A stretch of DNA of 64,000 bases from Burkholderiales bacterium (GTDB lineage Bacteria; Pseudomonadota; Gammaproteobacteria; Burkholderiales; Burkholderiaceae_C): assembly GCA_016213205.1 (NCBI GenBank), contig JACRAZ010000027.1, positions 62,001 to 126,000 on the forward strand, in the 5' to 3' direction. The notes below the pieces were generated by a model. It ran no database searches. It was not told the DNA's origin and was given only the letters and a program-made list of their open reading frames with translations. The position numbers and the translations under genes are program-made. Of this stretch, positions 4,677 to 40,152 are shown one piece after another (position 1 is the first letter of the stretch; each line of letters starts with the position of its first letter).

Positions 4677-4689
4677 CGGGTGGCGTGGC

Positions 4690-5667: not shown

Positions 5668-5683
5668 GGGTGAGGCTCCTGGT

Positions 5684-7635: not shown

Positions 7636-7772
7636 GCGGAACTCCTGAGGGCTGTGATCGATGGACTGGCGCCGACCTGCCGCCAAGGGACGCAGGCGCC
7701 GCGCACTTACGCGCCGGCGTGTGCCTCCTTGCACCCCCGATTGGCAGGACTCAAGGACCATGATAGCATTAT

Positions 7773-7790
7773 CGAACAGACGTTAGTTAG
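7773..7790. promoter_or_regulatory. Operator candidate, site B of the shared palindrome
   Basis: CGAACAGACGTTAGTTAG, identical to the site at 3410-3427 and sharing further flanking bases on both sides. It lies in the 234-nt divergent promoter region between the acyl-CoA dehydrogenase (start 7635, minus) and the TetR gene (start 7870, plus). Its location beside a TetR gene fits an autoregulated repressor; assignment of this TetR to the site is inference. Confidence 0.75.
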
Positions 7791-7869
7791 CCGCGAGCCC
7801 AGAGAGAAGCGTTGTCGCTTGTGCCACTAGAATGCTTGCTTCGTTTGTAACCTGTCAAACTTTCGAATC

Positions 7870-8493: not shown

Positions 8494-8499
8494 CCCGCG

Positions 8500-9006: not shown

Positions 9007-9039
9007 ACGAAAGCGCGCGCGCAGCGGCGTGCGCGGGCC

Positions 9040-10719: not shown

Positions 10720-10735
10720 CGACGAGGATGAAGCC

Positions 10736-11608
10736 GTGACTCAGGAAGAAGCCCCATCGTTCGGATTCGACGACGCTGCACTGGCCGCGTTGCCGCTCGT
10801 CTACCAGCCCGGCCTCTGCGACGGCCAGGTGGTGATGGTCTCGGGCGCCGGCAGCGGCATCGGCAAGGCCATCGCTTTCCTCTACGCGCGGCTGGGCGCA
10901 AGGCTCGTCATCTGCGGCCGCGACCGGGCCAAGCTCGACGCCTGCGAACCCTGGCTGCGCCGCCTGGGCAGCCCCGACGTGCTAGTGCAGCCCACCGACA
11001 TCCGCCGCACCGAGGCCATCGCCGCGCTGTTCGACGCCACCTACCAGCGTTTCGGCCGCCTGGACGTGCAGGTCAACAACGCCGGCGGGCAGTTCCCGAA
11101 GGCCGCGCTGGACATCAGCCCCAAGGGCTGGAAGGCAGTGGTCGACAACAACCTCAACGGCACCTGGTACATGATGCACGAGGCCGCCAGGCGCTGGCGC
11201 GATGCCGGCCGGCCCGGCAGCATCGTCAACATCGTGCTCACCTTCCAGCGCGGCTTTCCGGGCGTGGCGCACAGCTGCGCGGCGCGCGCCGCTGTCACCT
11301 ACCTGTCCAAGACGGTGGCGGTGGAGTGGGCGCAATTCGGCATCCGCGTCAACTGCGTGGCGCCGGGCGTCATCGAGAGCAGCGGCTTCGCGCACTACGC
11401 GCCCGAGGCGCGGGCCAAGTTCTCGCGCGGCAACCCGATGCTGCGCCACGGCAGCGTGCAGGACATCGCCAACGCGGTGCTCTACCTCACGGGCCCGAGC
11501 GGCGAGTTCGTCAATGGCGAACTGCTGAACGTCGATGGCGGCGGCATCCTCTGGGGCGAGCTGTGGACCATTCCCAAGCCGGCCTACTTCAACGCGGAGC
11601 AGTCGTGA
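10736..11608 (+). CDS. SDR of the peroxisomal trans-2-enoyl-CoA reductase / 2,4-dienoyl-CoA reductase type (copy 1)
   Basis: About 290 residues with an intact NAD(P)-binding motif VSGAGSGIGKAIAFLYARLG and NNAGGQFPKAALDISPKGW. The usual YxxxK catalytic pair is absent: the aligned region reads AHSCAARAAVTYLSKTVAVE, with Ser and Arg at those positions. This is the pattern of mammalian PECR/DECR-like reductases (HSGAARAGV in PECR), so reduction of a 2-enoyl- or 2,4-dienoyl-CoA is likelier than alcohol oxidation. I prefer the GTG at 10736, which has GAGG upstream, over an in-frame ATG at 10706 that overlaps the ETF-QO gene and lacks a ribosome site. Its stop overlaps the next start (TGATG). Confidence 0.85.
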   Translation: MTQEEAPSFGFDDAALAALPLVYQPGLCDGQVVMVSGAGSGIGKAIAFLYARLGARLVICGRDRAKLDACEPWLRRLGSPDVLVQPTDIRRTEAIAALFDATYQRFGRLDVQVNNAGGQFPKAALDISPKGWKAVVDNNLNGTWYMMHEAARRWRDAGRPGSIVNIVLTFQRGFPGVAHSCAARAAVTYLSKTVAVEWAQFGIRVNCVAPGVIESSGFAHYAPEARAKFSRGNPMLRHGSVQDIANAVLYLTGPSGEFVNGELLNVDGGGILWGELWTIPKPAYFNAEQS

Positions 11609-12498
11609 TGAACACCCTCGACGACCAGCCCCGCTTCGGCCCCGGCGACCGTGCGCTGGCCGAGCTGCCCACCGTCTACCGCAGCGATCTCTTCGCCAGC
11701 AAGGTGGTGCTCGTGTCCGGCGCCGGCAGCGGCATCGGCAAGGCCATTGCCTTTCTCTACGCCCGCCTGGGCGCCACGCTGGCGATCTGCGGCCGCAAGG
11801 CCGACGCGCTGGAACGCTGCGCCGAGCAGTTGCGCAGCCTCGGCGGCGGCCGCGAGGTCCTCGCCTTCCCGATGAGCATCCGCGACCCCGAGCAGGTCGA
11901 AGCGCTGTTCGAAGCCCTATGGCAGCGCTTCGGCGGCCTGGACGTGCTGGTCAACAACGCCGGCGGCCAGTTCGCGGCGCACGCGATGGATTTCACCGAC
12001 AAGGGCTGGAACGCGGTCATCGACACCAACCTCAACGGCACCTGGTACATGATGCAGGCCGCCGCCAAGCGCTGGGTGCGGGACGGCAAGCGCGGCGGCA
12101 ACATCGTCACCATCGCAGCGGCCGTGGACCGCGGCCTGCCCGGCATGGCGCACACCGCGGCCTCGCGGGCCGGCGTCATCGCGCTGTCGAAGACGCTGGC
12201 GGTGGAGTGGGCCGAGCACGACATCCGCGTCAACTGCATTGGCGCCGGTGCCATCGAGAGCAACGGCTTCAACAACTACAAGGAAGAGCATGTCGGCGGG
12301 CTCTTCCGCACCAACCCCATGAAGCGCGCCGGCGACGTGCAGGACGTGGCCGAAGCGGTGGTCTACCTCACCGCGCCGTCGGGCAAGTACATCACCGGCG
12401 AAACGATCAACATCGACGGCGGCATGGTGCTGTGGGGCGAGTTCTGGCCCGCCGGCATGCCCGACCACTTCCGGCCGCCCCGGCCGCCCGCTGCATGA
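11608..12498 (+). CDS. SDR of the PECR/DECR enoyl-CoA reductase type (copy 2)
   Basis: A 296-residue tandem paralogue of the preceding gene. It contains VSGAGSGIGKAIAFLYARLG, LVNNAGGQFAAHAMDFTDKG, TNLNGTWYMMQAAAKRWV and AHTAASRAGVIALSKTLAVE, and ends FITGE-like YITGETINIDGGMVLWGEFW. As in copy 1, the canonical YxxxK is replaced (Thr and Arg at the aligned positions), which fits the PECR/DECR subfamily. The ATG shares one base with the previous stop, and its own stop overlaps the CoA-transferase start as ATGA, so the three genes are translationally coupled. The two copies are roughly half identical by eye, suggesting an old duplication with possible division of substrates. Confidence 0.88.
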   Translation: MNTLDDQPRFGPGDRALAELPTVYRSDLFASKVVLVSGAGSGIGKAIAFLYARLGATLAICGRKADALERCAEQLRSLGGGREVLAFPMSIRDPEQVEALFEALWQRFGGLDVLVNNAGGQFAAHAMDFTDKGWNAVIDTNLNGTWYMMQAAAKRWVRDGKRGGNIVTIAAAVDRGLPGMAHTAASRAGVIALSKTLAVEWAEHDIRVNCIGAGAIESNGFNNYKEEHVGGLFRTNPMKRAGDVQDVAEAVVYLTAPSGKYITGETINIDGGMVLWGEFWPAGMPDHFRPPRPPAA

Positions 12499-13733
12499 CC
12501 CCACGAGACCCCTCCCACCCGCTGCCCGCGGGACCGCTTGCCGGCGTGCGCATCGTCGACCTCACAGGCGTCGTGATGGGGCCTTTTGCCTCGCAGATCC
12601 TGGCCGACTTCGGCGCCGACGTGATCAAGGTCGAGTCGCCCGAAGGCGACACGGTGCGCCACATCGGGCCCAGCCGCAGCAAGGGCATGGGGCCGATGTA
12701 CCTGGCGCTCAACCGCAACAAGCGCAGCGTCGCGCTCGACCTGCGCCACCCCGATGCGCTGGCCGCGTTGCAGCGGCTGATCGAGGGTGCCGACGTGCTC
12801 CTGTTCAACCTTCGGCCGGCCTCGATGGCGCGCCTGGGGCTGAGCTATGACGACGTGGCGCGCCTGAACCCGCGCATCGTCTACTGCGGCTGCTACGGTT
12901 TCGGCGAACGCGGGCGCTATGCCGGCAAACCGGCCCTCGACGACCTGATCCAGGGCTCGGTGGCGCTGCCGTCGCTGGTGGGCCGCGTCACCGGCGAGCC
13001 GCGCTACCTGCCCACCAACCTGTGCGACCGCACGACGGGCCTGACCGCCGTCTACAGCGTGATCGCCGCGCTCTACGCACGCGAAAAGACCGGCCGCGGC
13101 CAGGCCATCGAAGTGCCGATGTTCGAGACCATGACGCAGTTCGTGCTCTCCGACCACATGTTCGGCAAGACCTTCGATCCGCCGCTGGCCGACGCCGGCT
13201 ACGTGCGACTGCTGGCCAAGGACCGCCGGCCGCTGCGCACGAGGGACGGCCACATCTGCGTGCTGATCTACATCGACCGCCACTGGAAGAGCTTCTGCGA
13301 GATGCTCGGCCGCCGCGACATGCTCGAAGACCCGCGCTTCCTGCGCATGTCCGACCGCACGCGCAACGTCGATGCCCTCTACGCCTTCGTGGCCGAGGTG
13401 ATTGCCACGCGCACCACGGCCGAGTGGATGGAGGCGCTGGCCCGGGCGGACATCCCGGTGGCGCCGATGCACACGCCCGACAGCCTGATGGACGACCCGC
13501 ACCTGGGCGACGTGGGGATGTTCGAGTGGATCGAGCACCCGAGCGAAGGCCGCATCCGGCAGATGAACGTGCCGGGGTCGTGGTCCGACACGCCACCGGC
13601 GGTGCGCCGCCATGCGCCGCTGCTGGGCGAGAACACGCGCGAGGTGCTGGCCGAGGCAGGCTGTGCGGCCGACGAGATCGAGCGGCTGCTGGCGGCCGGC
13701 GCGGCACGGGAGTCCGTGGCGCCAACGAGATGA
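12495..13733 (+). CDS. CaiB/BaiF family (family III) CoA transferase
   Basis: A 412-residue protein. It starts with a proline-rich leader, then LAGVRIVDLTGVVMGPFASQ, ILADFGADVIKVESPEGD and LNRNKRSVALDLRHPDA, all signature segments of family III CoA transferases. The catalytic Asp is expected near residue 170 (KPALDDLIQGSVALPS). It ends LLGENTREVLAEAGCAADEI. It is the last gene of the plus-strand operon that starts with the TetR gene and overlaps the second SDR by 4 nt (ATGA). It presumably moves CoA from a pathway intermediate to the incoming acid; the donor and acceptor are unknown. Confidence 0.9.
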   Translation: MTPRDPSHPLPAGPLAGVRIVDLTGVVMGPFASQILADFGADVIKVESPEGDTVRHIGPSRSKGMGPMYLALNRNKRSVALDLRHPDALAALQRLIEGADVLLFNLRPASMARLGLSYDDVARLNPRIVYCGCYGFGERGRYAGKPALDDLIQGSVALPSLVGRVTGEPRYLPTNLCDRTTGLTAVYSVIAALYAREKTGRGQAIEVPMFETMTQFVLSDHMFGKTFDPPLADAGYVRLLAKDRRPLRTRDGHICVLIYIDRHWKSFCEMLGRRDMLEDPRFLRMSDRTRNVDALYAFVAEVIATRTTAEWMEALARADIPVAPMHTPDSLMDDPHLGDVGMFEWIEHPSEGRIRQMNVPGSWSDTPPAVRRHAPLLGENTREVLAEAGCAADEIERLLAAGAARESVAPTR

Positions 13734-25591: not shown

Positions 25592-26836
25592 ATGCGATCC
25601 AAACTGATTCACTTCATCGGCAGCGTTGCACTCGTCGTTGCCTCGACATTCGCGCAAGCAGCTGATCCAGTTCGCTTCGGCCTGTGCTACGACCTCACCA
25701 AGATCTACGTCGCCGCTGTGCCGCAGGTGGCACAGGCCGCCAAGGACTATGCCGATTTGGTCAACCTACGTGGGGGGCTGGAGGGGCATCCGATCCAGGT
25801 GACGGTACAGGACCACGGCAACGAACCCCAGCGCGGCATCGATTGCTACGAACGCCTCAAGCGCGAAGGCGTCATGCTCTTTGATTTCTTCTCCACGCCG
25901 GTGTCGCGAGCCGTCCTGCCTCGTATCATGCAGGACGGCAATCTCCTGCTGCAGCCACTGGTCGGCCGGGGCGATGCCGTGGATGGCGAGGTCTTCAAGA
26001 ACGTGTTCGTGCTGGCACCCACCTATTGGGGCCAAGCCGCAAACATCGTCGGCTATTTCAAGAGACAGGCCGGCGGTGACTTGGCGGGCAAAAAGGTCGC
26101 CTTCCTGTACCTGGATACACCGTTCGGCCGCGAGCCAATTCCGGTCTTCGAGGCGCTCAAGCGCCTCGAACGCTTCGACTTCCAGACCTTCCCGTTTCCG
26201 GTCCCTGGGAACGATCAGAGTGCGGCCTTCGCGCAGATCCGTCGCTATCAGCCGGACTGGGTGGTGCTGTGGTCCTTCTCGCCACTGAACCCGATCTCGT
26301 TCCGAGAGATGCAACGCAACGGCATCCCGATCGACCGCATGGTGACCGGCAACTGGATCAACGAGGTCGACCTCAACAACTTCGGCGCCGCAGCGGCCAA
26401 GGGCCTGAAGCGCTCTGCCGTGGTGAGCGGCGGCGCCGAGCACCCGCTGGTGCAGGACATCCTGCGCGAGTTGTACGACAAAGGCAAAGGCAATGGCGAC
26501 CGCAAACTGGTGGCCGACTCTTACTACAACACCGGCCTTGCGGTCTACTCTTCGGCCTTCGAGGGGGTACGCTTGGCCATCAAGACGCAGGGCTGGCCCC
26601 TCACACCCGAAAAGATCCGACAAGGCATGTACGGTCTGAAGAAGTTTGACGCCAAGGGCTTCATGGCACCGATCACTGTGACGCCGCAGGACCACGGCGG
26701 CGGCGGCATGACCCGCATCGACATGTGGGACGGCACGAAGTGGGTGCCGCAGACGAAATGGTTTGCCGACTACACGGGTCTTGTGAACACGCTCATCAAG
26801 GCCAATTCGGCCGACTTCGCCAAAGCGAACAAGTGA
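25592..26836 (+). CDS. Periplasmic ABC substrate-binding protein (copy 2)
   Basis: A 414-residue paralogue of the preceding gene, of identical length and clearly more than half identical by eye. The signal peptide is roughly residues 1-24 (SVALVVASTFAQAADP). The mature start VRFGLCYDLTKIYVAAVPQV parallels copy 1; shared landmarks are VQDHGNEPQRGI, STPVSRAVLPR and GAEHPLVQDILRELYDKGKG. GAAGGAGACTACGACATG gives a strong ribosome site. Codon usage looks slightly less G/C-biased than its neighbour. Two receptors feeding one permease pair probably widen the ligand range. Confidence 0.92.
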   Translation: MRSKLIHFIGSVALVVASTFAQAADPVRFGLCYDLTKIYVAAVPQVAQAAKDYADLVNLRGGLEGHPIQVTVQDHGNEPQRGIDCYERLKREGVMLFDFFSTPVSRAVLPRIMQDGNLLLQPLVGRGDAVDGEVFKNVFVLAPTYWGQAANIVGYFKRQAGGDLAGKKVAFLYLDTPFGREPIPVFEALKRLERFDFQTFPFPVPGNDQSAAFAQIRRYQPDWVVLWSFSPLNPISFREMQRNGIPIDRMVTGNWINEVDLNNFGAAAAKGLKRSAVVSGGAEHPLVQDILRELYDKGKGNGDRKLVADSYYNTGLAVYSSAFEGVRLAIKTQGWPLTPEKIRQGMYGLKKFDAKGFMAPITVTPQDHGGGGMTRIDMWDGTKWVPQTKWFADYTGLVNTLIKANSADFAKANK

Positions 26837-26864
26837 TCGCAACCTCTACCCGCCCGAGCCTCCG

Positions 26865-27659
<795 letters not shown>

Positions 27660-27699: not shown

Positions 27700-28098
27700 T
27701 CACACCGGCACGAACACCGGCAGCGGCGGTCCGCCTTCGCTCGGCTGGAAGCGCACCGCGACGCGCTGGCCGATGCGGATGGCGTCGGCATCGGCGTCAA
27801 CGATGTTGGTCATCATCGACGGGCCTTCGTCCAGCGTCACGTAGGCGACGATGTAGGGCACGTCGGCGCGGCGCATGACGCTGAAGCTGTAGATCGTGCC
27901 CTGCCCGCCGGCCTGTCGCCACTCGGTGTTCAGGCTGCCGCAGAACGGGCAGCCGTCGCGCGGATAGTGGTGGTGCTCGCCGCAGTCGCCGCAGCGCTTG
28001 ACGAGCAGCCTGCCTTCGGCGGCGGCATCCCAGAACGGCTTGGCGTCGGGGTAGACGGTGGGCGCCGGCATCTTGCGCCGGCCGATGGTCAGACTCAT
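27700..28098 (-). CDS. DUF35 / OB-fold zinc-ribbon protein, partner of thiolase (pair 1)
   Basis: A 132-residue protein with an N-terminal rubredoxin-like zinc ribbon (KRCGDCGEHHHYPRDGCPFCG, residues 34-54) followed by an OB-fold that begins QGTIYSFSVMRRADVPYIVA. Such proteins bind acyl-CoA and form complexes with SCP2-like thiolases or retro-aldolases (for example ChsH2 DUF35 with Ltp2). The ATG overlaps the stop of the thiolase gene by 4 nt (ATGA), which strongly implies a stoichiometric complex. It is the last gene of the minus-strand operon that starts at 32718. Confidence 0.9.
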   Translation of the reverse strand: MSLTIGRRKMPAPTVYPDAKPFWDAAAEGRLLVKRCGDCGEHHHYPRDGCPFCGSLNTEWRQAGGQGTIYSFSVMRRADVPYIVAYVTLDEGPSMMTNIVDADADAIRIGQRVAVRFQPSEGGPPLPVFVPV

Positions 28099-29261
28099 GC
28101 GCGCTCCAGGATCAGGGTGGCACTGCCGTGCCGGGTGCCGAGCGAGCCGCCGGTGCCGTGCGCCAGCGCGAGCCGGCAGTTCGGCACCTGCACCTTGGGG
28201 TGGGCCTCGCCGCGCAGCTGGCGCACGGCCTCGATCACCTTGGTCATGCCGCCGCGGTTGCCCGGGTGGTTGTTGCACAGACCGCCGCCGTCGGTGTTGA
28301 ACGGCAGCTTGCCGGTGCCGGCGATCAGGTTGCCGTCGCTGACGAAGCGGCCGCCCTGCCCCTTGGCGCAGAAGCCCAGGTCCTCCAGGGTCAGCAGCAC
28401 GGTGATCGTGAAGCTGTCGTAGATCGACGCATACTGGATGTTCGCAGGCTTCACGCCGGCCTCGGCGAACGCGGCCTTGCCGGTCCACGCCGCGCCGGTG
28501 GTCAGCAGGTCGACCTTGCCGCCGCTCTGCGCGCGCTGGTATTCGCCGGTGCCGATGATGTTGACGACCGGCCGCTTCAGGCTGCGCGCGATCTCGGGCC
28601 GCACCACCACCAGCGCACCGCCGCCGTCGCTGATGACGCAGCAGTCCAGCCGGTGCAGCGGGTCGGCGATCATCGGCGAGCCGACCACCTCCTTCACCGT
28701 GACCACGTCGCGCACCATCGCGTGCGGGTTGTGCTGCGCGTGATGCGAGGCCGCGACGCGGATCCACGCCAGCTGCTCGCTCGTCGTGCCGTGCTCGTGC
28801 ATGTGGCGCATCGCGGCCATCGCGTACATGTTCACCGTGGTCGGCGCGTACGGCAGCTCGAACGGCACGTCGGGCGCGGGGCCGTAGTTGCGCGGCGCGG
28901 TGCCGGTGGCCATGCCCTCGGCCTTGGGCCGACCGGCCAGCGTGATCAGCGCGACGTTGCAGCGCCCGGCGGCGATGGCCGCGGCGGCGTGCGCCACGTG
29001 CACCAAGTACGACGAACCGCCAGTCTCGGAGGTGTCCACGTGCCGGACGCTCATGCCGAGGTAGTCCACCATCGACAGCGCCCCCAGCCCCGGCGCGTCG
29101 CCGGCGCAGAAGTAGCCGTCGACGTCCTTGAGCGTCAGCCCGGCATCGGCCAGCGCGCCGCGCGCGACCTCGGCATGTAACTGGGCCACCGACTTGTCGT
29201 CGGCACGACGTGTCGGGTGTTCCCAGGCGCCGGCAATGCAGGCGGTGTTCTTCAGGCTCAT
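28095..29261 (-). CDS. Thiolase-fold SCP2/Ltp-like protein, probable aldolase or thiolase (pair 1)
   Basis: A 388-residue thiolase-superfamily protein. ALADAGLTLKDVDGYFCAGD opens the fold, and SIYDSFTITVLLTLEDLGFC and NTDGGGLCNNHPGNRGGM are typical of the lipid-transfer-protein branch. The nucleophilic Cys of true thiolases is not visible: the aligned stretch reads VDTSETGGSSYLVHVAHA, and the second Cys motif near the C-terminus is HGTGGSLGTRHGSATLI. This is the pattern of Ltp2-type retro-aldolases that release a side-chain unit. It overlaps the downstream DUF35 gene and the upstream MaoC gene by 4 nt each. Confidence 0.85.
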   Translation of the reverse strand: MSLKNTACIAGAWEHPTRRADDKSVAQLHAEVARGALADAGLTLKDVDGYFCAGDAPGLGALSMVDYLGMSVRHVDTSETGGSSYLVHVAHAAAAIAAGRCNVALITLAGRPKAEGMATGTAPRNYGPAPDVPFELPYAPTTVNMYAMAAMRHMHEHGTTSEQLAWIRVAASHHAQHNPHAMVRDVVTVKEVVGSPMIADPLHRLDCCVISDGGGALVVVRPEIARSLKRPVVNIIGTGEYQRAQSGGKVDLLTTGAAWTGKAAFAEAGVKPANIQYASIYDSFTITVLLTLEDLGFCAKGQGGRFVSDGNLIAGTGKLPFNTDGGGLCNNHPGNRGGMTKVIEAVRQLRGEAHPKVQVPNCRLALAHGTGGSLGTRHGSATLILERA

Positions 29262-29653
29262 GCCGATGCTCCTGCGGGCTTCAGCGTCGCCGTGCCCTTA
29301 ATGACGTCCTGCCCCTTGGCGTTGCGCACCCACACGTCGTAGGCGGGCGGCTCGCTGCCGGGGCGCAGCTCGCCGCCGCCGGTCACGTCGTCGTCGATGC
29401 GCACCGGCTGCACGAACTTGATCTCCAGGTGGATGCGGTTCAGGGCCTGCACGCCGAGCGTGTTCTTCAGCGCCTGCCAGATCAGCGCTACCGACATCGT
29501 GCCGTGGGCGATGATGCCGCCCATCGGGCTCTTGGCGGCGAATTCCTTGTCGACGTGGATCGGGTTGTAGTCGTTCGTCACCGCCGCGTACTTCATGATG
29601 ATGTCGAAGTCGACGTGCTTGGTCGACGGTGTCAGCTGCGCCTGCACGGGCAC
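29258..29653 (-). CDS. MaoC-like hydratase, catalytic-type hotdog subunit
   Basis: A 131-residue hotdog protein with the hydratase-2 signature YAAVTNDYNPIHVDKEFAAK and SPMGGIIAHGTMSVALIWQA (residues 23-62), keeping the catalytic Asp and His. It lies 7 nt after a second hotdog gene (29661-30062) that lacks this motif, the arrangement of heteromeric enoyl-CoA hydratases such as ChsH1/ChsH2. Its stop overlaps the thiolase-fold gene as ATGA. The likely job is hydration of an unsaturated acyl-CoA just before retro-aldol or thiolytic cleavage. Confidence 0.87.
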   Translation of the reverse strand: MPVQAQLTPSTKHVDFDIIMKYAAVTNDYNPIHVDKEFAAKSPMGGIIAHGTMSVALIWQALKNTLGVQALNRIHLEIKFVQPVRIDDDVTGGGELRPGSEPPAYDVWVRNAKGQDVIKGTATLKPAGASA

Positions 29654-29660
29654 TCCTCCT

Positions 29661-30062
29661 CTACTGCGCCACCAGCGTCGTCATGACGCCGGTGAACAGC
29701 AGTTCGTTCGATCCGACGGCACGCGTCTCGCTGCGCACGCGCACCCACTTGCGCTCCTTCTTGATCTCCTTGTCGAGGCACCACACGTCGGTGCGGAGCG
29801 TCTCGCCGATGCGCGGCATGCGCCGGACGTCGAAGGTCTGCCCGCCGTGCACGCCGCCGGGCGGGCGCGGCGCGTTGAGCGTGAGCACCGCGTCGATGAC
29901 GATCATCGCCAGCATGCCGGCCGGCATCACGCCCGGGTCGTCGTCGTGCGGGTAGACGCTGCGCCACTTCGACACGGTCGTCTCGTCGACGGCGAAGTCG
30001 CGCGCGCCGTAGTGCTCGCCCGGCTCGTAGTGGGCGTAGTTGAAGATCGGCTTCTCGCTCAT
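29661..30062 (-). CDS. MaoC N-terminal-domain-like hotdog protein, probable non-catalytic hydratase partner
   Basis: A 133-residue protein beginning MSEKPIFNYAHYEPGEHYGA, with VMPAGMLAMIVIDAVLTLNA, VHGGQTFDVRRMPRIGETLR and KKERKWVRVRSETRAVGSNE. This matches the N-terminal (MaoC_dehydrat_N) half of double-hotdog hydratases, which binds substrate but carries no catalytic Asp/His. The adjacent catalytic-type hotdog gene supplies the other half. The pair resembles the split hydratases of steroid side-chain degradation; that function is inference. Confidence 0.75.
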   Translation of the reverse strand: MSEKPIFNYAHYEPGEHYGARDFAVDETTVSKWRSVYPHDDDPGVMPAGMLAMIVIDAVLTLNAPRPPGGVHGGQTFDVRRMPRIGETLRTDVWCLDKEIKKERKWVRVRSETRAVGSNELLFTGVMTTLVAQ

Positions 30063-30120: not shown

Positions 30121-30528
30121 TCATGCCGGTTCCACTTGAGGAATCTTCTGCTCGCTGCCGTGGCGCGATTCGAAACACACGCGCACCGCCATGCCGATGC
30201 GCACCTGCGCCGGGTCGCAGCGCAGCACGTTGCACATGAAGCGGAAGCCCTCATCCAGGTCCACCAGCGCCAGCACGTAGGGAACATCGCTCGCGAACGA
30301 GGCGATCGGCGCGCGGTGGATGACCGAGAAGCTGGCGATTCGCCCACCGCCGCCGGCCTTTTGCCAGGCCAGGTCGGTGGCATGGCAGTGCACGCAGGCG
30401 TTGCGCGCATAGAACTGCGCCTTGCCGCAGGCGCCGCAGCGCTGGTAGCGGAACTCGCCCAGATTGGCGCCTTCCCAGTAGGTGCGGCTGATGCCGTCGG
30501 GCACCGGCTTGGCTTGCGTGTTGGCCAT
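30121..30528 (-). CDS. DUF35 / OB-fold zinc-ribbon protein (pair 2)
   Basis: A 135-residue protein. The zinc ribbon is YQRCGACGKAQFYARNACVH followed by C (residues 27-48). The OB-fold begins GGRIASFSVIHRAPIASFAS. The start ATG lies 2 nt after the stop of the adjacent thiolase-fold gene, so the two products are likely partners. The 58-nt gap to the next gene contains no obvious signal. Confidence 0.88.
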   Translation of the reverse strand: MANTQAKPVPDGISRTYWEGANLGEFRYQRCGACGKAQFYARNACVHCHATDLAWQKAGGGGRIASFSVIHRAPIASFASDVPYVLALVDLDEGFRFMCNVLRCDPAQVRIGMAVRVCFESRHGSEQKIPQVEPA

Positions 30529-30530
30529 CG

Positions 30531-31682
30531 TCAGGCCCTCCCCAGCAGGATCGAGCAGTGGCCCGAGAAGATCCCGCCCAGCGTGTGCGCGAGCGCGACT
30601 TCGGCGTCCTTCACCTGGCGCGGCCCGCACTCGCCGCGCAGCTGACGCACCGCCTCGACGACGTGGAACATGCCGCCGGCCGGTCCCGATGAGCCGTACG
30701 ACAGCAACCCGCCGTTGGTGTTGAGCGGGAACCTGCCGCCGATGGCGAACTCGCCGGCCAGCGCCGCCGGGCCCGCCGCGCCGCGCTCGTAGAAGCCCAT
30801 CGATTCGAGCTGGATCAGCAGCGTGCTGGTAAAGCAGTCGTAGATGTGCGCACTGTCGACGTCGGCGTGCGTCAGCCCCGCGCGGCCGAGCGCTTCGGCC
30901 ACCGACTCGCGGCACCCGAAGTCGATCAGCGAAGGCGCGGCGAAGATGTGTTCGTGCGTGTGGCCCTCGCCGGTGGCGAGCAGCTCGACCGGGCGCTTGG
31001 GCCTGTCGCGCCCGATCTCGGAGGCGCTGACGATCACCGCCGCGCCGCCGTCGGAGACGGGGCAGCAGTCGAGCATGCGCAGCGGCGAGGCGATCACCTT
31101 GGACCTGCGCACGTCGTCCATCGTGATCGGCTTCTTCATGTGCGCCTGCGGGTGCAGCGCCGCGTTGGCGCGCTGGTTCACCGCCACCGCGGCGAGGTGG
31201 TCGCCGTTGAGCCAGCCTTCGTGGAAGTAGACCTGCGCGGCCATCGCGAACGCCGCCGGCACGCTCATGCCATAGGGCTGCTCGTACTGCGCGTGGCCCA
31301 CGTCGGCAAGCGCGGCCTGCACCTTCTCGCCCATGCCGGTGAGGCGGTTGTCGCCGGTCACGCACAGCACGTGGCGGCACAGGCCCGAGCGCACCAGCGA
31401 TTCGGCGTGCCGCACCAGCAGCCCGCCGGTCATGCCGCCCATGCAGATGGAGGCATTGACCTTGGGCCGGAAACCCAGGTACTCGGCGAGCACGCCGCCG
31501 AGCATCAGCTGCGGCGAGGCGAACGAATACGCGGTGAGCAGGCCGTCGATGTCCGACAGCTTCAGGCCCGCGTCGGCCAGCGCGCCGAGGCTGGCCTCGG
31601 CGTGCAGCGACATGCAGGTGCTCTCCGGCAGCGAGCCGACCTGCGTGTCGAACACGCCGCTGACGATGGCTTTGCTGGCCAT
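30531..31682 (-). CDS. Thiolase-fold SCP2/Ltp-like protein (pair 2)
   Basis: A 383-residue thiolase-superfamily protein with GALADAGLKLSDIDGLLTAY, HIYDCFTSTLLIQLESMGFY and FPLNTNGGLLSYGSSGPAGG. A Cys lies where the nucleophile is expected (ASICMGGMTGGLLVRHAE). However, the His of the GHP motif seen in the other two copies is replaced (SYGSSGPAGG), and the C-terminal segment reads HTLGGIFSGHCSILL. Its catalytic set thus differs from both pair 1 and pair 3. An AAGGA site precedes the ATG. It follows the nitronate-monooxygenase remnant by 21 nt. Confidence 0.83.
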   Translation of the reverse strand: MASKAIVSGVFDTQVGSLPESTCMSLHAEASLGALADAGLKLSDIDGLLTAYSFASPQLMLGGVLAEYLGFRPKVNASICMGGMTGGLLVRHAESLVRSGLCRHVLCVTGDNRLTGMGEKVQAALADVGHAQYEQPYGMSVPAAFAMAAQVYFHEGWLNGDHLAAVAVNQRANAALHPQAHMKKPITMDDVRRSKVIASPLRMLDCCPVSDGGAAVIVSASEIGRDRPKRPVELLATGEGHTHEHIFAAPSLIDFGCRESVAEALGRAGLTHADVDSAHIYDCFTSTLLIQLESMGFYERGAAGPAALAGEFAIGGRFPLNTNGGLLSYGSSGPAGGMFHVVEAVRQLRGECGPRQVKDAEVALAHTLGGIFSGHCSILLGRA

Positions 31683-31703
31683 GGTTTTCCTTCGGTGATG
31701 CGG

Positions 31704-31946
31704 TCAGGGCAGGCTGACGACGAGGTCGCGCTGCAGGCGGCGCAACTGCTCCACCGCGCCATCGACCAGCTCGGCCATGATGTCCTTCGCCGGCCGGCGG
31801 CCCTTGACGAGCCCGCCTGCCTGCGACACCGCCGCCACCAGCGCCGGCGGCGTGGCGCGGCCGCCCACGCCCATGCCGGCCAGGAAGATCGGCACCTCGA
31901 TGCCCCAGGCATCGCAGAAGGAGTTGTGCAGCACGGCGCGGCTCAT
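31704..31946 (-). pseudogene. Nitronate monooxygenase remnant with an in-frame internal deletion
   Basis: An 80-codon open frame whose first part (WGIEVPIFLAGMGVGGRATP, PALVAAVSQAGG) is the N-terminus of a nitronate-monooxygenase-type flavoprotein. Its second part (LVKGRRPAKDIMAELVDGAV, EQLRRLQRDLV) is the C-terminal helix of the same family. Around 230 residues are missing between them without loss of frame (junction near 31812). The FMN-binding centre is gone, so it cannot be an active oxidase. Compare the full-length relative at 18106-19092. It sits between the enoyl-CoA hydratase (gap 10 nt) and thiolase genes of the same operon. Confidence 0.75.
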
Positions 31947-31956
31947 CGCGGCGCCG

Positions 31957-32718
31957 TCACTTGAACGTCGGCTTGCGCTTGGCGCGGAAGGCCGCCACGC
32001 CTTCCTTCACGTCGTCGGTCTGGAACAGGAACGGGAACGCGTCGATCGCGTAGCGCATGTCGTCGCCGCCGATGCCCTTGTTGTAGAACGACTTGGCCAT
32101 CTGCAGCGCCATTTGCGGCTTGGCGGCCAGCTTCTCGGCGAAGGCCATCGCCTCGTCTATCAGCTTCTCGGGCGCCACCGTGCGCAGCGCGATGCCCAGC
32201 GCCACCGCCTCGGCGGCGGAGATCGGGTCGCCGAGCATGCTCATCTCCTTGGCCTTCGGCCGCCCGACGATCTGGTGCAGCCGCAGCAGCGCGAAGCCGG
32301 GCAGCAGGCCGAGCTGGATCTCGGGCACGCCGAATTTGGCGCGCTCCGAGGCGAGGATGAAGTCGCAGGCGATCGCCAGCTCGAAGCCGCCGCCGAAGGC
32401 GATGCCGTTGACCGCCGCGATCAGCGGCTTGCGGCAGCGCTCGGGCATCTCGAGCACCGGCAGCACGCCGGCGATGAAATCGCGCGCCTGCTCGGGCGTC
32501 TCGGGGAAGCTGCTGATGTCGGCGCCAGCGCAGAAGGCCTTGTCGCCGCGGCCGGTGAGGATGCCGACGCGAACATCGGGGTCGGCGTCGATCCTCGCCA
32601 GCCCCTCGGTCACGCCCTGGCGGATGCCCAGCGAGATGGCGTTGAGCTTGGTCGGCTCGTCCAGGGTGAGGACCGCGATGCGGCCCACTTTCTCGAATTC
32701 GACGCTGCCGATGCGCAT
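31957..32718 (-). CDS. Enoyl-CoA hydratase/isomerase family protein
   Basis: A 253-residue crotonase-fold protein. GILTGRGDKAFCAGADISSF (near residue 52) and VNGIAFGGGFELAIACDFIL (near residue 103) are the oxyanion-hole segments. FGVPEIQLGLLPGFALLRLH shows Glu at one hydratase acid position; the second expected Glu is replaced (GLLPGFALLRL instead of GLxPGxGGTQRL). It is the first gene of the minus-strand operon running to 27700, and operator candidate site F lies about 115 nt upstream. Confidence 0.9.
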   Translation of the reverse strand: MRIGSVEFEKVGRIAVLTLDEPTKLNAISLGIRQGVTEGLARIDADPDVRVGILTGRGDKAFCAGADISSFPETPEQARDFIAGVLPVLEMPERCRKPLIAAVNGIAFGGGFELAIACDFILASERAKFGVPEIQLGLLPGFALLRLHQIVGRPKAKEMSMLGDPISAAEAVALGIALRTVAPEKLIDEAMAFAEKLAAKPQMALQMAKSFYNKGIGGDDMRYAIDAFPFLFQTDDVKEGVAAFRAKRKPTFK

Positions 32719-32920: not shown

Positions 32921-33613
32921 CTAACGCGCGACCCAGCCGCCGCTGACCGGGAACACCTGGCCGACGAAGCAGTTCGCAGCGTCGCTGCACAGGTGCGCGG
33001 CGAACCCGGCCGCCTCGCGCGCGCCGACCAGCCGGCCCAGCGGCACTTCGCGCTTCAGGCGCTCCTGGAAGCGCGGGTTGGCCTTCACGTCGGGCGGGAA
33101 GTAGGTGGGCGTGTCGACGAAGTTGAACGCCAGCGCATTGACCTGCACGCCGTGGCGCGCAACTTCGACGCCCACGGCCTGCGCCCAGGCGAGCTGCGCG
33201 CCCCGTGCGGCGCTGTAGGACGACGCGCGGTTCTGCCCGCGCAGGGCGGCCGCGCTGCCGAGCAGCACGATCTTGCCCGAGCGGCGCGCGATCATCTGCG
33301 GCAGCACCGCGCGCGCCAGCCTCGGCAGCGGGTCCACCATCGCGGCGAAGGCCTCGCGCCACTCGGCGTCGCTGACCTCGGCGGCCAGCGTGCTGGCGGC
33401 CGGAATGCCCAGGTTGATCAGCAGCGCGTCGATGGTGCCGGCGTCGCACACGACGCGCTCGGCCACATCGGGGGCGTCCAGCCGTTCGTCGTTGGCGACA
33501 ACTTCGGCGCCGCGCGCGGCCAGCACCTCGCACAGCACAGGGCCGACGAAGACTGTCGACTGGGTGACCAGCACGCGCCGGCCCTTCAGGCTTTCGGGTT
33601 CCACGGCATTCAT
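32921..33613 (-). CDS. Halohydrin dehalogenase-like protein (SDR-derived)
   Basis: A 230-residue protein of SDR fold that has lost the nucleotide-binding glycine motif. It carries both published halohydrin dehalogenase fingerprints: T-x4-F-x-G (Thr17, Phe22, Gly24 in VTQSTVFVGP) and S-x12-Y-x3-R (Ser120, Tyr133, Arg137). The C-terminal part (TPTYFPPDVKANPRFQERLK, REVPLGRLVGAREAAG, VGQVFPVSGGW) also matches HheC-type enzymes. Such enzymes release halide from vicinal haloalcohols to form epoxides and open epoxides with anions. The start is uncertain: GAGGAG abuts the ATG at 33611-33613 directly, and another in-frame ATG lies at about 33663. It follows a truncated acyl-CoA ligase. Confidence 0.82.
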   Translation of the reverse strand: MNAVEPESLKGRRVLVTQSTVFVGPVLCEVLAARGAEVVANDERLDAPDVAERVVCDAGTIDALLINLGIPAASTLAAEVSDAEWREAFAAMVDPLPRLARAVLPQMIARRSGKIVLLGSAAALRGQNRASSYSAARGAQLAWAQAVGVEVARHGVQVNALAFNFVDTPTYFPPDVKANPRFQERLKREVPLGRLVGAREAAGFAAHLCSDAANCFVGQVFPVSGGWVAR

Positions 33614-33679
33614 CTCCTCGTTCGATCGGACACGGCAGTGGCTCGCGCTGCCTGATCGCATCTTCGCATTGTGCGACCG

Positions 33680-34449
33680 GCCGCCGGCACGGCCGCACCC
33701 GTGATGGTCTTGCCGACGAAGTCGCGGCAGGCCATTGCGGCGGGCGGCAAATCGTTGCCGCCGCCGCAAGCAGCGAGAAGGCCGCCCATCTGGAGCACCG
33801 CGAGGCCGGGCAGGTCGAACGCGCCGACGTGGTACAGCGGCCCGACGACGAGCAGTCGCTCGGCACCGTGCAGGCCGAGCACCGCGATGTGGTCGAGGCA
33901 CTTCCAGTGGTAGTTGGCGTAGCTGTGGATCACGCCCTTGGGCCGGTCGGTGGTGCCCGACGTGTACATCAGCCGGAACAGATCCTCGGGCCGGCGCACG
34001 CAAGGCTCGACAACAGCCTCGGCGGACGGCCCGATGCGGCGGCTGTCGGACTGCGCCGCCTCGTCGACGACGGCAATGTTGCCGAAGACGCCCGCCAGCG
34101 CGCGCAGTTGGTCGTCGACCAGCAGCAGCTTCACGCCCGCATGGCCGACGATGTACGCCACCTCGTCGGCGCCCAGCCGGCAGTTGATCGGCAGTAGCAC
34201 CGCGCCGAGGTGGCTCACCGCGAGCGAGATCTCGATGAAGGCGGCGCTGTTCTTCATCAGCAGCGCGACAATGTCACCTTCGCCGATGCCGCGTGCGCGC
34301 AGGCTGCCCGCTGTGGCCGCGACGCGCGCTGCGAGCTCGCCGTAGCTCACGCGCCGGTCGCGGTAAAGCAGCGCCAAGCGTCCGGGCTCGGCACGCGCCC
34401 AGCGGAGCACGGCGGCACTCAGATGACCAGCGTTTTCTCCGGTGCGCAA
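33680..34449 (-). pseudogene. Truncated AMP-forming acyl-CoA ligase
   Basis: The open frame (33610-34449, TTG start beside the IS110 element) encodes the N-terminal half of an ANL ligase: RVSYGELAARVAATAGSLRA, VSHLGAVLLPINCRLGADEV, and the P-loop LMYTSGTTDRPKGVIHSYAN near residue 170, then VGPLYHVGAFDLPGLAVLQM. Homology fades near 33690, after about 240 residues, and the C-terminal domain with the catalytic lysine is missing. The frame then runs antisense-like residues into the 5' side of the halohydrin-dehalogenase-like gene. It can neither adenylate nor thioesterify normally. A deletion between this gene and its downstream neighbour is the simplest explanation. Confidence 0.8.
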
Positions 34450-35827
34450 CTCTCAAGAAACAAATCTGAAGACGCGGCTCGTGCGGCCACCGTCGTCGGG
34501 TCGAGTTGGAAGCCCAGTGCGGCAGCGCGGCGCTTGAGTGCGGCGATGCTGCGCTGGCGCTGCTGATCTTCGTATCGCTGCTGGCCCTGATCGACGAACT
34601 GCTCGCCGCGGGTGAGCATGAAGTACACCATCCGCGCCAGCTTGTGTGCGGTGGCGGTGTTGGCGCGCGGCTTGTCCATGCGCCCGCTCAAGCGGCGGTA
34701 GAACGCACCGAGCGCAGAGTCGCTGCGCGACAGGCTCATCGCGGCCATCTTCAGCGCCTGGCGCGCACGGTTGGCCGAACGCTTCGTGCCCGAGGACGGT
34801 ACCTTGCCGCCACTGATCTTCGTGCCCGGGCAAAACCCCAGCCAGGAACAGAAGTGCTTGACGGTGGCGGAGCGGCTCACGTCCGGCCGATCTCCGTCAG
34901 CAGCTTCATCACCACCGTGACCCCGATCCCGTTGATGCGCGTGAGGTCCACACCCGCCCAGTTGGCCAGCGACTGGCGAACGTCGAACTCCACGCGCAAT
35001 TTGCTGCCCGCCTTGGGCGCACGGCCCAGATCGACCTGGGCCCTGCTGCGCTCGCACAGCAGCGCCTGCAGCTTGGCGTCGCACTCGTGCAGGCGCCGGG
35101 CAATGTCGTCGTACATCGCCAGCGCCTGCCCGAGCACGAACAGATGTTCGTCGCGCCAGTTGCCCGTCAGCGCCTTGGTGACATCGTCCGCGCTGGCCTT
35201 GACGCGGTTGGTACGGTGTCGCGCCAGCACCTTGGGGTCGCGCTCGCCAGCCACGATGGCGCGGATGATGGCTTGCCCTCTGGCGCCCATGACGTCACCC
35301 AGCACCTCGATGAGCTGGATATTCATCTGCACCAGCGCCTTCTGCATGCGCTGCACCCAGGTCGCCTGGTCCGTGATCTGCACCTCGCGCTGGCGCGCCA
35401 CCGCACGCACCACGCAGACCTCGCCGTCCGGGCGCCAGGCCGCGCGCAGCAGCCCCAGGCTCATGAGCTTCTGCAGCCACTGACAGTCCTGCACGTCGCT
35501 CTTGCAGCCGGGCACGTACTTCATCTGCCGCGCGTCCACCAGCCAGACCTTCAGCCCGCGCTGCTCCAGCACCTCGTACACCGGGATCCAGTACACCCCG
35601 GTGGACTCCAGCGCCACCGTGTCCACGCCCAGCGCGAGCAGCCAGTCGGCCAGCGCGTTCAGGTCATCGGTCATGGCGCCAGTCTCGCGCACCGGATCGC
35701 AGCCAGCCTGTTCGGCCAGATGCCGCGGCACCGCCACCCAGTGGCTCGATGCCCCGATGTCGATCCCCGCCGCGTTCGGGAACACCTCGTCGTCTCGCTT
35801 GCGCATTGCCATGGCTTGCTCCACCAT
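34419..35827 (-). pseudogene. IS110-family transposase, frameshifted
   Basis: The first frame starts MVEQAMAMRKRDDEVFPNAA and GIDIGASSHWVAVPRHL (first DEDD Asp) and continues VDTVALESTGVYWIPVYEVL, then VPGCKSDVQDCQWLQKLMSL. It stops at 34877 after VVMKLLTEIGRT. The adjacent frame resumes DVSRSATVKHFCSWLGFCPG, with SGTKRSANRARQALKMAAMS (the C-terminal domain with the catalytic Ser region) and HKLARMVYFMLTRGEQFVDQ, to 34419. A single missing base near 34885 would restore a protein of about 470 residues. Either the element is dead or this is a sequencing error; programmed frameshifting is not usual in this family. Confidence 0.8.
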
Positions 35828-36055: not shown

Positions 36056-36875
36056 CACATTCATGGGCTTGGGATGCTCGGTGGCGCGCGCCACCGCCTG
36101 CGCGGCCAAGAGCTTGCGGCGTTGGCCTCGCTGCCGTAGGGCAGGCCCATGTCGCAGTTCGTCGCCGCTTTGTGGTTGAGAAGCCGCGCCGCCTCGACCT
36201 CGACGTGGCACTGCGCGAGCGGGAGCTGCAGGCCCTGGTAGCTGGAGACGGGTTTGTCGCCGAACACCTTGCGCTCGTTGGCGTAGTTCACCGCGAGCCG
36301 GATCGCCAGCTCACCGGTGCCGGCCAGCGCCGCCGTCGTGACCATGCGCTCGGTGTTGAGCACGTCCAGCAGTTCGTGCCAGCCGCGGTGCAGTGTGGAA
36401 ACGAGTTCGTCCGCGCGCTCGGACACGTCGTCGAAATGGATGCTGCTCGACGCGAGCGTGCGGGTGCCCGCCTTGTCGATCGTGGCGTGCGTCACCCCCC
36501 CTTGCGCTCCACCTCGATCATGAACATCGACAGGCCATCACTGCGCGACTTGCATTCCGAGAGCTTCTTCGTGCGCGCGACGACGAGCATCTTGGCCGCA
36601 TCGGGAACGCCGGTAATCCAGATCTTGCGACCGTTGAGCCGCCAACCGTCGCCGTCGGTCTCGGCGAAGCTGCGCACCTCGAGCGTGTTGGTGTCGGCAT
36701 CGGGCTCGGTCAGCGTCATGCAGCAGTTGATCTCGCCGGAGACAATCTTCGGCAGCAGCTCGGCCTTCACCGCCGGCGTGCCGAACTTCGAGAGCGCGAC
36801 GCCGCCGAAGATCGGGTTGATCATGAACAGTTGGCCTGCGGTGGCGCCGCCCCCGCAGGCCGCCAGCGTCTCGAT
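36056..36875 (-). pseudogene. Decayed acyl-CoA dehydrogenase
   Basis: The minus strand carries AGQLFMINPIFGGVALSKFG, then CMTLTEPDADTNTLEVRSFA and GWRLNGRKIWITGVPDAAKM, up to MFMIEVERKGG and a stop. A length change in the C7 tract at 36495-36501 breaks the frame, and homology resumes as VTHATIDKAGTRTLASSSIH, NTERMVTTAALAGTGELAIR and VEVEAARLLNHKAAT. A second 1-nt loss near 36114 splits EANAA from KLLAAQAVARATEH, where the IS110 element begins. About 95 N-terminal residues and the C-terminal segment are missing. The gene is non-functional and was originally in line with the ligase and dehalogenase-like genes downstream. Confidence 0.85.
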
Positions 36876-38476: not shown

Positions 38477-38904
38477 CGGTTCGCCCGCCGGAACCGCGGT
38501 AGTACGGTGCCCGAGCCGGCTGGTTCGCAGACCAGTTCGACGGATGCGTCGAAGTCGATCGACATCGGGTCCGCATCGACCAGCGAACTGATCATGCGCG
38601 GCCCTTCTTCGAGCTCGACCAGCAGCACTGCATAGGGCGTTTCCTGCTTAAATGCCGGGCCCGGGGCCCGGTGCACCACGCTGAACGAGTGGACTTTTCC
38701 GCGACCGCTCGCGGGCTTGTGAACCAGCTGCGCGCCGAGGCACCGCCGGCAGACCGCCTGCTGGTACAACTGCACATGCCCGCAGCTACCGCAGTGCTGC
38801 AGCAGCAGCCGGCCTTCCTTCAAGGCGTCCCAGTAGGCTTGTGAGTCGGCGTCCGGCGTGGGCAGAGGCTTGATGTGGGCCTCACTAGGGTCAATGCGTC
38901 TCAC
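38473..38904 (-). CDS. DUF35 / OB-fold zinc-ribbon protein (pair 3)
   Basis: A 143-residue protein with the zinc ribbon LQHCGSCGHVQLYQQAVCRR followed by C (residues 36-57) and an OB-fold starting GKVHSFSVVHRAPGPAFKQE. The GTG start (38902-38904) overlaps the thiolase-fold stop by 4 nt (GTGA). This is the third thiolase/DUF35 couple of the window, and the only one followed by a coupled small ORF. Confidence 0.88.
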   Translation of the reverse strand: MRRIDPSEAHIKPLPTPDADSQAYWDALKEGRLLLQHCGSCGHVQLYQQAVCRRCLGAQLVHKPASGRGKVHSFSVVHRAPGPAFKQETPYAVLLVELEEGPRMISSLVDADPMSIDFDASVELVCEPAGSGTVLPRFRRANR

Positions 38905-40100
38905 AGCGTGGCCTCCGTGCCGAGGATGGTGGTGGCCTGAGTGGCGAAGCCGGCGCCCAGGCTGTGCACAAGGCCGAGTTCGGCACCCGCCACCTGTCGC
39001 TCCCCGCAATGCCCGCGCAATTGCTCGACCACTTCCAGGAAGTGCAACAGGGAACCCGGCATGCCCGGGTGGGCAAACGACAGCAGACCGCCATGCGTAT
39101 TGATCGGGATGCTCCCGCCGTAGGTGATCTGGCGGTCGTCGACGAAGCGGCCGCCCTCACCCTTCGGACAGAACCCCAGGTCCTCGAGCATCATCACCAC
39201 TGTGCCGGTGAAGCAGTCGTACACACCGGCCACGTCGATGTCGCGCGGGGCCACGCCTGCCATCGCGTACGCCCGCGCGCTGGACTGAACGGCGCCGGTC
39301 GTCGTCAACGACGGCATCAGGAAGATGTGCTCATGGGTGTAGCACTCGCCGCCGCCGAGGATGTAGACCGGCTTGCTTCGGCCCGCGGCAGCGCGGTCGG
39401 CGGCACTTACGACGAACGCCGCGGCGCCGTCGGAGATCAGCGAGCAATCGAGCTTGTGGTACGGCGTGGTCACCCAACCAGAGTTCAGCACGTCCTCGAC
39501 CGTGATCGGCGTGGTCATCTGCGCGCCGGGCGTGCGCATCGCATGCTCGCGGTGGATGACGGCGACCTTCGCGAACTGCTCGGACGTGGTGCCGAACTCC
39601 TTCATGTGACGGTGCGCCGTCATCGCGAAGGTGTTCGCGACCGGGATTCCGAACGGCATCTCGTACTGCTGGTCGCGGCTCTCGGTCATCGAGCGCAGCG
39701 CCAAGTCGGGCGACAGCCCCGTCAGCAGGCTGTCGGCGCCGAGCACAAGTACGTTGTCGGCGAGGCCCGCTGCGATCGCCGCTGCGGCCATGTTGAACAT
39801 CGTGGCCGCCGTCGCGCCCGACACCTGCAGCGTGTTCGAGAACGTCGGGGCGATGCCGAAGTACTCGCTAAAGGCCACGCTGAAGCGGTGGAACGGAGCC
39901 GCGAACGCGACGCTCGTCAGCACACCGTCGATGGCGCCGCGATCGAGGCCCGCATCGGCCAGTGCCGCCTGCGCGGCATCGGTCGCCAGTGCCATGACGC
40001 TGCGGCCCTCGACGCGGCCCACTGCCGATCGCCCCGCCCCCGTGATCGCGGCTCGTCCGCGCAAGCTTCGCATTGCTGACTTTGACTCACTTGAAGCCAT
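38901..40100 (-). CDS. Thiolase-fold SCP2/Ltp-like protein (pair 3)
   Basis: A 399-residue thiolase-superfamily protein. ALADAGLDRGAIDGVLTSVA, VYDCFTGTVVMMLEDLGFCP and PINTHGGLLSFAHPGMPGSL are characteristic. The nucleophile region reads SNTLQVSGATAATMFNMA with no Cys, and the C-terminal motif is HSLGAGFATQATTILG, also without Cys, suggesting a non-thiolase (aldolase-like) reaction. I chose the ATG at 40098-40100 because GGAGG lies 9 nt upstream; a GTG 27 nt further up is in frame. Operator candidate site G is about 53 nt upstream of this start. Confidence 0.85.
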   Translation of the reverse strand: MASSESKSAMRSLRGRAAITGAGRSAVGRVEGRSVMALATDAAQAALADAGLDRGAIDGVLTSVAFAAPFHRFSVAFSEYFGIAPTFSNTLQVSGATAATMFNMAAAAIAAGLADNVLVLGADSLLTGLSPDLALRSMTESRDQQYEMPFGIPVANTFAMTAHRHMKEFGTTSEQFAKVAVIHREHAMRTPGAQMTTPITVEDVLNSGWVTTPYHKLDCSLISDGAAAFVVSAADRAAAGRSKPVYILGGGECYTHEHIFLMPSLTTTGAVQSSARAYAMAGVAPRDIDVAGVYDCFTGTVVMMLEDLGFCPKGEGGRFVDDRQITYGGSIPINTHGGLLSFAHPGMPGSLLHFLEVVEQLRGHCGERQVAGAELGLVHSLGAGFATQATTILGTEATL

Positions 40101-40152
40101 GGCCGTCGACCTCCGTGCCTCCTGCACTGCCCGTTCGAAGGTATTCTAATAC

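Follow-up and report, generated by a model that had tools for sequence, protein, structure and literature searches.

We found that a gene on the minus strand of the window (the whole 64,000 bp stretch of Burkholderiales DNA analyzed here) encodes, with a probability that we put at a little under 0.8, an intact D-type halohydrin dehalogenase that would need no NAD(P), would work by an HheC-like mechanism and may be tied to the pathway of its neighbours. The assignment to the D-type, together with the purifying selection on the gene, is the firm part of this reading. What appears to be new is a change of the nucleophile pocket that is specific to a small branch of D-type proteins and is coupled with the company of acyl-CoA genes.

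The Gene and Its Diagnostic Motifs

The gene and the two motifs that mark its product are located as follows:

32921..33613, minus strand: D-type halohydrin dehalogenase gene, 230 aa plus stop (assigned from translation, PDB phmmer, tree and AlphaFold2 model)
33542..33565, minus strand: motif 1, T17-x4-F22-x-G24 (T17-QSTV-F22-V-G24), read in the translation
33203..33256, minus strand: motif 2, S120-x12-Y133-x3-R137, the catalytic triad (translation and alignment)

A previous sequence-only reading of this DNA had ascribed T17/F22/G24 and S120/Y133/R137 to the 230-residue product, and exactly these residues were found in the translation. In the available text of two papers, motif 1 of halohydrin dehalogenases is defined as T-x4-F/Y-x-G (PMC4989007, PMC11976700); according to the second of them, it lines the nucleophile pocket, and its Thr and Gly can be replaced only by similar residues (PMC11976700). 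When all stop-to-stop ORFs of 100 aa or longer in the window were scanned (345), motif 1 was found in five and motif 2 in six, and this gene alone (1/345) contained both at the spacing of halohydrin dehalogenases. In 200,000 shuffled versions of the protein the two motifs never occurred together; thus, the pair exceeds chance.

The cofactor motif of classical short-chain dehydrogenases/reductases (SDRs), T-G/A-x3-G/A-x-G, is absent and its site is occupied by TQSTVFVG. The classical triad S-Y-x3-K is absent as well, since the protein has Y133-x3-R137, with Arg replacing Lys. S120, Y133 and R137 show no variation among the members of the four-protein branch described below or across the 114 further D-type rows compared, while T17, F22 and G24 are missing in one of these 114 rows each.

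It should be mentioned that the window contains two adjoining SDR genes matching PF13561 (10829–11542 and 11719–12426). By reading, both keep the glycine-rich GxGSGIG and have neither S-x12-Y-x3-R nor the usual Tyr-x3-Lys; we take them to resemble SDRs of the dienoyl-CoA reductase type.

Placement Among Halohydrin Dehalogenases

The best phmmer match of the protein in the PDB was 7b73 (E-value 1.8e-90), followed by 8xxb (5.8e-82), the HheB structure 4zd6 (6e-46), 5b12 and 6a41; according to their titles, 7b73 is HheD2 and 8xxb is a triple mutant of HheD8. FabG-type SDRs came after the halohydrin dehalogenases, at 4e-25 and about 1e-25. The C-terminal half had been described earlier as HheC-like, which did not hold: among solved structures the protein is closest to HheD2 and HheD8, and HheC was absent from the best 60 of 466 matches. 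Pfam assigned the protein only to adh_short_C2/adh_short, i.e., to the SDR superfamily, and in the best 25 of 185 NCBIfam models none reached its own cut-off.

The host genome contains 66 PF13561 matches, including two D-types. For comparison, seven SDRs from this genome were placed in a tree of 66 rows; they were kept from the best eight loci on the basis of a stop-free reading and the presence of Y-x3-K (L001 was dropped). The window protein was split from all seven with a support of 100/100 and fell inside a clade of 52 rows together with HheD2 and HheD8 (99/98). Within this clade it formed a group of four (100/99) with proteins from Schlegelella koreensis (L052), a Rubrivivax MAG (L053) and a proteobacterial MAG (L054). 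HheB likewise fell among these 52 rows, with a long branch, and the tree accordingly does not delimit the B types from the D types.

An AlphaFold2 model of the monomer, built from 37 sequences, had a mean pLDDT of 82.9 and a pTM of 0.84; it was weak at residues 1–3, 123–128 and 218–230, with pLDDT below 50 in the last two regions. When the model was compared with known structures (VIA-align), the top four rows were all halohydrin dehalogenases (Z 29.7, 28.9, 28.2 and 28.0) and the next had Z of at most 24.8. The closest folds were 7b73 (HheD2, Z 29.7), 8xxb, 5b12 and 4zd6. Identity was 60–62% to HheD2 and 61% to the HheD8 mutant by Foldseek, and 57% to each by VIA; these values of 57–62% lie within the 57–95% that HheD19–HheD38 have to verified D-types, as given in the available part of a review (PMC4989007).

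The tree supported the membership in the halohydrin dehalogenases proposed earlier. A phylogeny among ordinary SDRs or a model with an intact cofactor site had been named as grounds for giving it up; both phylogeny and model sided with the halohydrin dehalogenases, and the glycine-rich motif is absent. The window protein is to be classed with the D-types and not with HheC.

Distribution of D-Type Genes

D-type genes were found to be widespread and common in the genus of the host, so the supposed rarity of such enzymes has to be abandoned for this type. Sixteen of 20 congeners carry a D-type match at an E-value of 1e-40 or better, one of them (G019) being a fragment at a contig end. Across the order, 26 of 300 genomes, with the host included, have such a match, four of the 26 being a 37–39% identical outgroup. 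A pattern scan with one genome per species gave 142 confirmed stretches, and the best 80, which were kept, are 62–95% identical to the window protein. Among these best 80 of 142, only L052 (95%), L053 (94%) and L054 (77%) reach at least 75% identity. Such identity was found in 399 genomes of the family only in the host and in G849, whose gene has the same contig and coordinates as that in the genome of L052.

The host has a second D-type gene (L132; contig C88, 9571–10251), which begins 45 bp after an ABC transporter gene. Its product is 68% identical to the window protein and has standard motifs; it retains the standard Q163/N168 pocket, in contrast to F163/T168 of the window protein.

The four outgroup proteins (L048–L051) come from different genomes that all belong to a single family within the order. 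They have both motifs and form their own clade beside the B and D types, outside the 52 rows, possibly representing another halohydrin dehalogenase subtype. In addition, D-types with 63–71% identity were seen on contigs labelled as Anaerolineae, Cytophagales, Kapaibacterium and Klebsiella pneumoniae MAGs (L059, L088, L091, L116); these taxon labels may be binning errors.

An Altered Nucleophile Pocket in a Small Branch

To characterize the pocket, 145 distinct near-full-length D-type proteins from the loci collected were compared. M23, Q163 and N168 were present in 140 of them, and the same five proteins departed at all three positions: the window protein, L052 and L053 (V, F, T), L054 (I, C, T) and L031 (I, M, T). 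L161 is likewise common to these five proteins, whereas the remainder of the 145 carry I or V at this position. The four-member branch is further distinguished by A73 (P in 139/145) and by A or V at position 201. V23 of the window protein is the residue preceding G24 in motif 1; the other main sites are:

33110..33127, minus strand: loop F163-N-F-V-D-T168 (Q163/N168 in 140/145 D-types)
33011..33013, minus strand: A201 (D in 140/145 D-types), aligned with HheB Asp199

Near-invariant positions are also changed in L045 (eight) and L046 (seven), at other sites and in more divergent proteins. In terms of sequence, it is the place of the changes in the branch that is notable, not their number.

Position 163 aligns with Pro175 of HheC, while the alignment of position 168 to HheC crosses a gap. 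According to the available text of PMC11976700, a water molecule in HheC connects the reacting carbon with the Pro175 backbone carbonyl; since the contact named is a backbone carbonyl, the side chain at position 163 may matter less. HheC P175S alters enantioselectivity and HheB D199H belongs to a selectivity mutant, as reported in the part of PMC4989007 available to us, and the branch is thus a natural variant at sites that have been used to engineer selectivity. Because V23, L161, F163, T168, A73 and A201 are changed in or around the pocket, the anion and substrate preferences of the branch probably differ from those of HheD2. Moreover, given the differences from HheD2 and HheD8 at positions 163 and 168, activity could be reduced or different.

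The fifth pocket variant, L031, has the same loop as the identical proteins L080 and L147, and carries Ala in place of the motif-1 glycine. In a tree calculated without the pocket columns, L031 paired with L063 (100/88), apart from the window branch, so the pocket change may have arisen twice; but a single clade for L031 and the branch, and hence a single origin, was not rejected by the AU test (p-AU 0.283). The L031/L080/L147 gene sits downstream of GNAT, glyoxalase and GST genes, and the contig ends after it.

The Acyl-CoA Island

The dehalogenase gene lies in an island with the following features:

25592..27659, plus strand: periplasmic binding protein and ABC ATPase (PF13458, PF00005), presumably of the branched-chain amino-acid type
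27700..28098, minus strand: DUF35/ChsH2-type protein (PF01796, PF12172)
28095..29261, minus strand: SCP2-type thiolase-like protein (above cut-off for NF006010/PRK08142)
29258..29653, minus strand: MaoC-like dehydratase (PF01575)
29661..30062, minus strand: 133-aa protein beside the MaoC-like gene (MaoC-like by reading, unmatched in Pfam and NCBIfam; with conserved counterparts in L052 and L053)
30121..30534, minus strand: DUF35/ChsH2-type zinc-ribbon OB-fold protein (PF01796, PF12172)
30531..31682, minus strand: SCP2-type thiolase-like protein (PF22691; NCBIfam thiolase-domain models)
31683..31956, minus strand: remnant of a nitronate monooxygenase (NMO)/FabK-like gene (the L052 gene encodes 375 aa; the deletion here is of about 870 bp)
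31957..32718, minus strand: enoyl-CoA hydratase/isomerase (PF00378), 202 bp downstream of the dehalogenase
33610..34449, minus strand: truncated AMP-dependent acyl-CoA ligase (PF00501; PRK06145)
34880..35800, minus strand: IS110-type transposase, N-terminal part (PF01548), upstream of the dehalogenase
36061..36824, minus strand: two acyl-CoA dehydrogenase fragments in separate ORFs (PF00441, PF02770)
38901..40127, minus strand: third SCP2-type thiolase-like protein of the island (PF22691; 97% in L052)

The flanking acyl-CoA genes and the truncated ligase noticed in the sequence-only reading are therefore present, the former by Pfam and NCBIfam matches. Residues 10–226 of the 279-aa ligase match only positions 4–220 of the 499 positions of PRK06145; the family homology stops near 33772, and the DNA shared with L052 starts near 33800 (blastn). 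By reading, the apparent C-terminal part of the IS110-type transposase (34419–35800) is in another frame than its N-terminal domain.

Similar islands surround the closest relatives. In both L052 and L053 the dehalogenase is followed by enoyl-CoA hydratase, NMO/FabK-like protein, SCP2-type thiolase, DUF35, two small proteins (one MaoC-like), SCP2-type thiolase and DUF35, and the window has the same order minus about 870 bp of the NMO gene. The island genes are 85–98% identical to those of L052 and L053, except for one DUF35 gene with 82 and 49% (query partly misframed). The transporter genes are on the opposite strand in L052, as in the window, and no match to them was found in L053 within the stretch examined. 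A DDE transposase gene is located upstream in L052. In L053 the place of the ligase is taken by a DUF35 gene; thus, a ligase does not always belong to the island. The 77% relative, L054, belongs to a different operon (thiolase, acyl-CoA dehydrogenase, AMP ligase and PLP aldolase), in which the aldolase gene overlaps the start of the dehalogenase by 4 bp. Thus, all four branch members are found among acyl-CoA genes, and since three of them share one island, the independent contexts number two.

The dehalogenase gene is under purifying selection (dN/dS 0.177 against L052 and 0.218 against L053; 0.06–0.38 in six neighbours), while the island around it decays, as indicated by the mostly deleted NMO gene, the truncated ligase, the fragmented acyl-CoA dehydrogenase and the presence of IS110. 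The gap between dehalogenase and hydratase is 202 bp in the window and in L052 and 201 bp in L053; with such a gap, the dehalogenase may or may not be transcribed together with the island.

Neighbourhoods of Other D-Type Genes

We surveyed 98 loci (L052–L151 without L069 and L094) with five genes on each side. No general conserved neighbourhood of D-type genes was found in them: the most frequent neighbour family occurred in 12 of the 98, at mixed positions and strands. Exemplars of SCP2, DUF35 and MaoC matched L052 and L053 only. At least three acyl-CoA genes were found near the D-type gene only in L052, L053, L054 and four loci with a leucine-type operon (L055, at 4111–12664, L058, L071 and L127), where the dehalogenase lies between the methylcrotonyl-CoA carboxylase alpha subunit and an HMG-CoA-lyase-like gene. 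The D-types of these four loci keep the standard pocket. One or two acyl-CoA-type genes within about 10 kb were seen in L062, L076, L089, L099, L114, L132, L141, L148, L149 and L151.

A link of all D-types with acyl-CoA genes was considered and rejected, as it is confined to the window branch and the four leucine-type loci and most loci lack one. The acyl-CoA setting, previously called unusual, is accordingly not a general D-type trait, the neighbourhoods of D-types being mixed. That D-types occur in three separate acyl-CoA settings is suggestive.

The family to which L127 belongs gave 21 D-type hits in 150 genomes, and the leucine context was seen only at L127 (flanks of 1.5 kb). At this locus a single 949-aa frame (L127:7823–10669) runs directly from the methylcrotonyl-CoA carboxylase alpha subunit into the D-type dehalogenase. 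The locus comes from a MAG and contains 16 ambiguous bases, and no comparably long frame was seen at the 20 other family hits; the frame may thus reflect either misassembly or a genuine fusion.

A search of the host genome for EHN-type and limonene-type epoxide hydrolases gave no hit, and two type II haloacid dehalogenases above cut-off are encoded on other contigs. In the available part of a 2016 review, only two known halohydrin dehalogenase genes are said to share an operon with an epoxide hydrolase, and other physiological functions are considered possible (PMC4989007). Our literature search, with subscription papers mostly outside its scope, gave no paper combining "halohydrin dehalogenase" and "leucine degradation". 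Judged by titles and the beginnings of abstracts, no paper on acyl-CoA neighbourhoods of halohydrin dehalogenase genes was recognised.

Proposed Mechanism and Alternative Readings

From the sequence, motifs, clade, fold, gene order and purifying selection we infer the activity of the protein, its mechanism, the effect of the pocket changes and the link to a pathway. If it acts as established for HheC, Ser120 would position the substrate hydroxyl and Tyr133, its pKa lowered by Arg137, would accept the proton. The alkoxide would then expel the vicinal leaving group and close to the epoxide, the leaving anion being held in a pocket that would take the place of the cofactor site and be formed by the T17–G24 loop and other loops, including 163–168. 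In the reverse direction, the same site could open epoxides with small anions. The position of the branch gene among genes of acyl-CoA breakdown points to an enzyme whose substrate or product would enter a CoA pathway.

The location of the gene may of course be incidental, a reading to which we give serious weight, somewhat short of even odds, and which is compatible with dehalogenase activity. The enzyme would then be a general detoxifier of natural halohydrins or epoxides left beside acyl-CoA genes by rearrangement. This would agree with the varied neighbourhoods of the 98 D-type loci, with the IS110 element, the truncated ligase and the second transposase (in L052), which mark a site of active rearrangement, and with the distance of 202 bp to the hydratase gene. 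Yet the gene order from dehalogenase to DUF35 is retained in L052 and L053, and in L054 the dehalogenase has a 4 bp overlap with the gene that closes an acyl-CoA row including a ligase. A bolder proposal takes the opposite direction: a D-type offshoot that lost the otherwise near-invariant M23, Q163 and N168 in a coordinated way would have been drawn into CoA-thioester catabolism, with a CoA-bound or acid substrate and a non-halide leaving group or nucleophile. In a similar version, fold and triad were kept, the protein was recruited to another cofactor-free reaction on a CoA-bound substrate (e.g., opening or closing of epoxyacyl-CoA, or adding or removing another leaving group), and the pocket changes mark the switch. 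We regard the offshoot as a speculative idea and the recruitment, likewise, as rather unlikely. Near-invariant pocket positions are altered specifically in the branch, acyl-CoA genes surround all its four members in two different operons, and a separate D-type group lies within a leucine-type operon; but that group has a standard pocket, the triad and motif 1 of the branch are intact, L031/L080/L147 is outside an acyl-CoA context as far as seen, and three of the four members share one island, which makes two contexts and not four.

The state of the island could also raise the suspicion that the gene is itself a decaying remnant from which no functional enzyme is made, as the NMO gene is mostly deleted, the ligase truncated and the acyl-CoA dehydrogenase in fragments. 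Against this, the ORF is full-length, every catalytic residue is present and the dN/dS of about 0.2 against two relatives is inside the range of the intact neighbours, which makes this reading improbable. Hardly any room is left for an ordinary NAD(P)-dependent short-chain dehydrogenase: the Pfam assignment to adh_short_C2/adh_short and the failure of the best 25 of 185 NCBIfam models to reach their cut-offs would permit it, but the protein has no glycine-rich motif, carries Arg for Lys in the triad and sides with the halohydrin dehalogenases in both tree and fold. We therefore retain the reading as an intact D-type halohydrin dehalogenase. The branch, with its changed anion pocket and defined set of acyl-CoA genes, offers a testable lead on the natural role of these enzymes and a concrete place to seek it.

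Comparison With Known Halohydrin Dehalogenases

The window protein is most similar to HheD2 (7b73) and HheD8 (8xxb), with which it shares the motifs, triad, fold and clade; the identities of 57–62% extend over about 220 residues. It differs from both in and around the pocket, where M23, P73, Q163, N168 and D201 are replaced by V23, A73, F163, T168 and A201. Both motifs are also common to HheB (4zd6; 40–41% identity, Z 28.0), but HheB has Tyr in motif 1, gives a phmmer score of 160 bits as compared with 306 for HheD2 and, unlike the window protein, has the usual D-type residues at position 163 (Q), position 168 (N) and position 201 (D). HheC (1pwx) and HheA2 (1zmo), whose type of mechanism is described as cofactor-free in the available text of PMC4989007, have the motifs and the triad in common with the window protein, while they are distant from it and located in a separate clade; the C-terminal extension present in HheC is lacking in the window protein.
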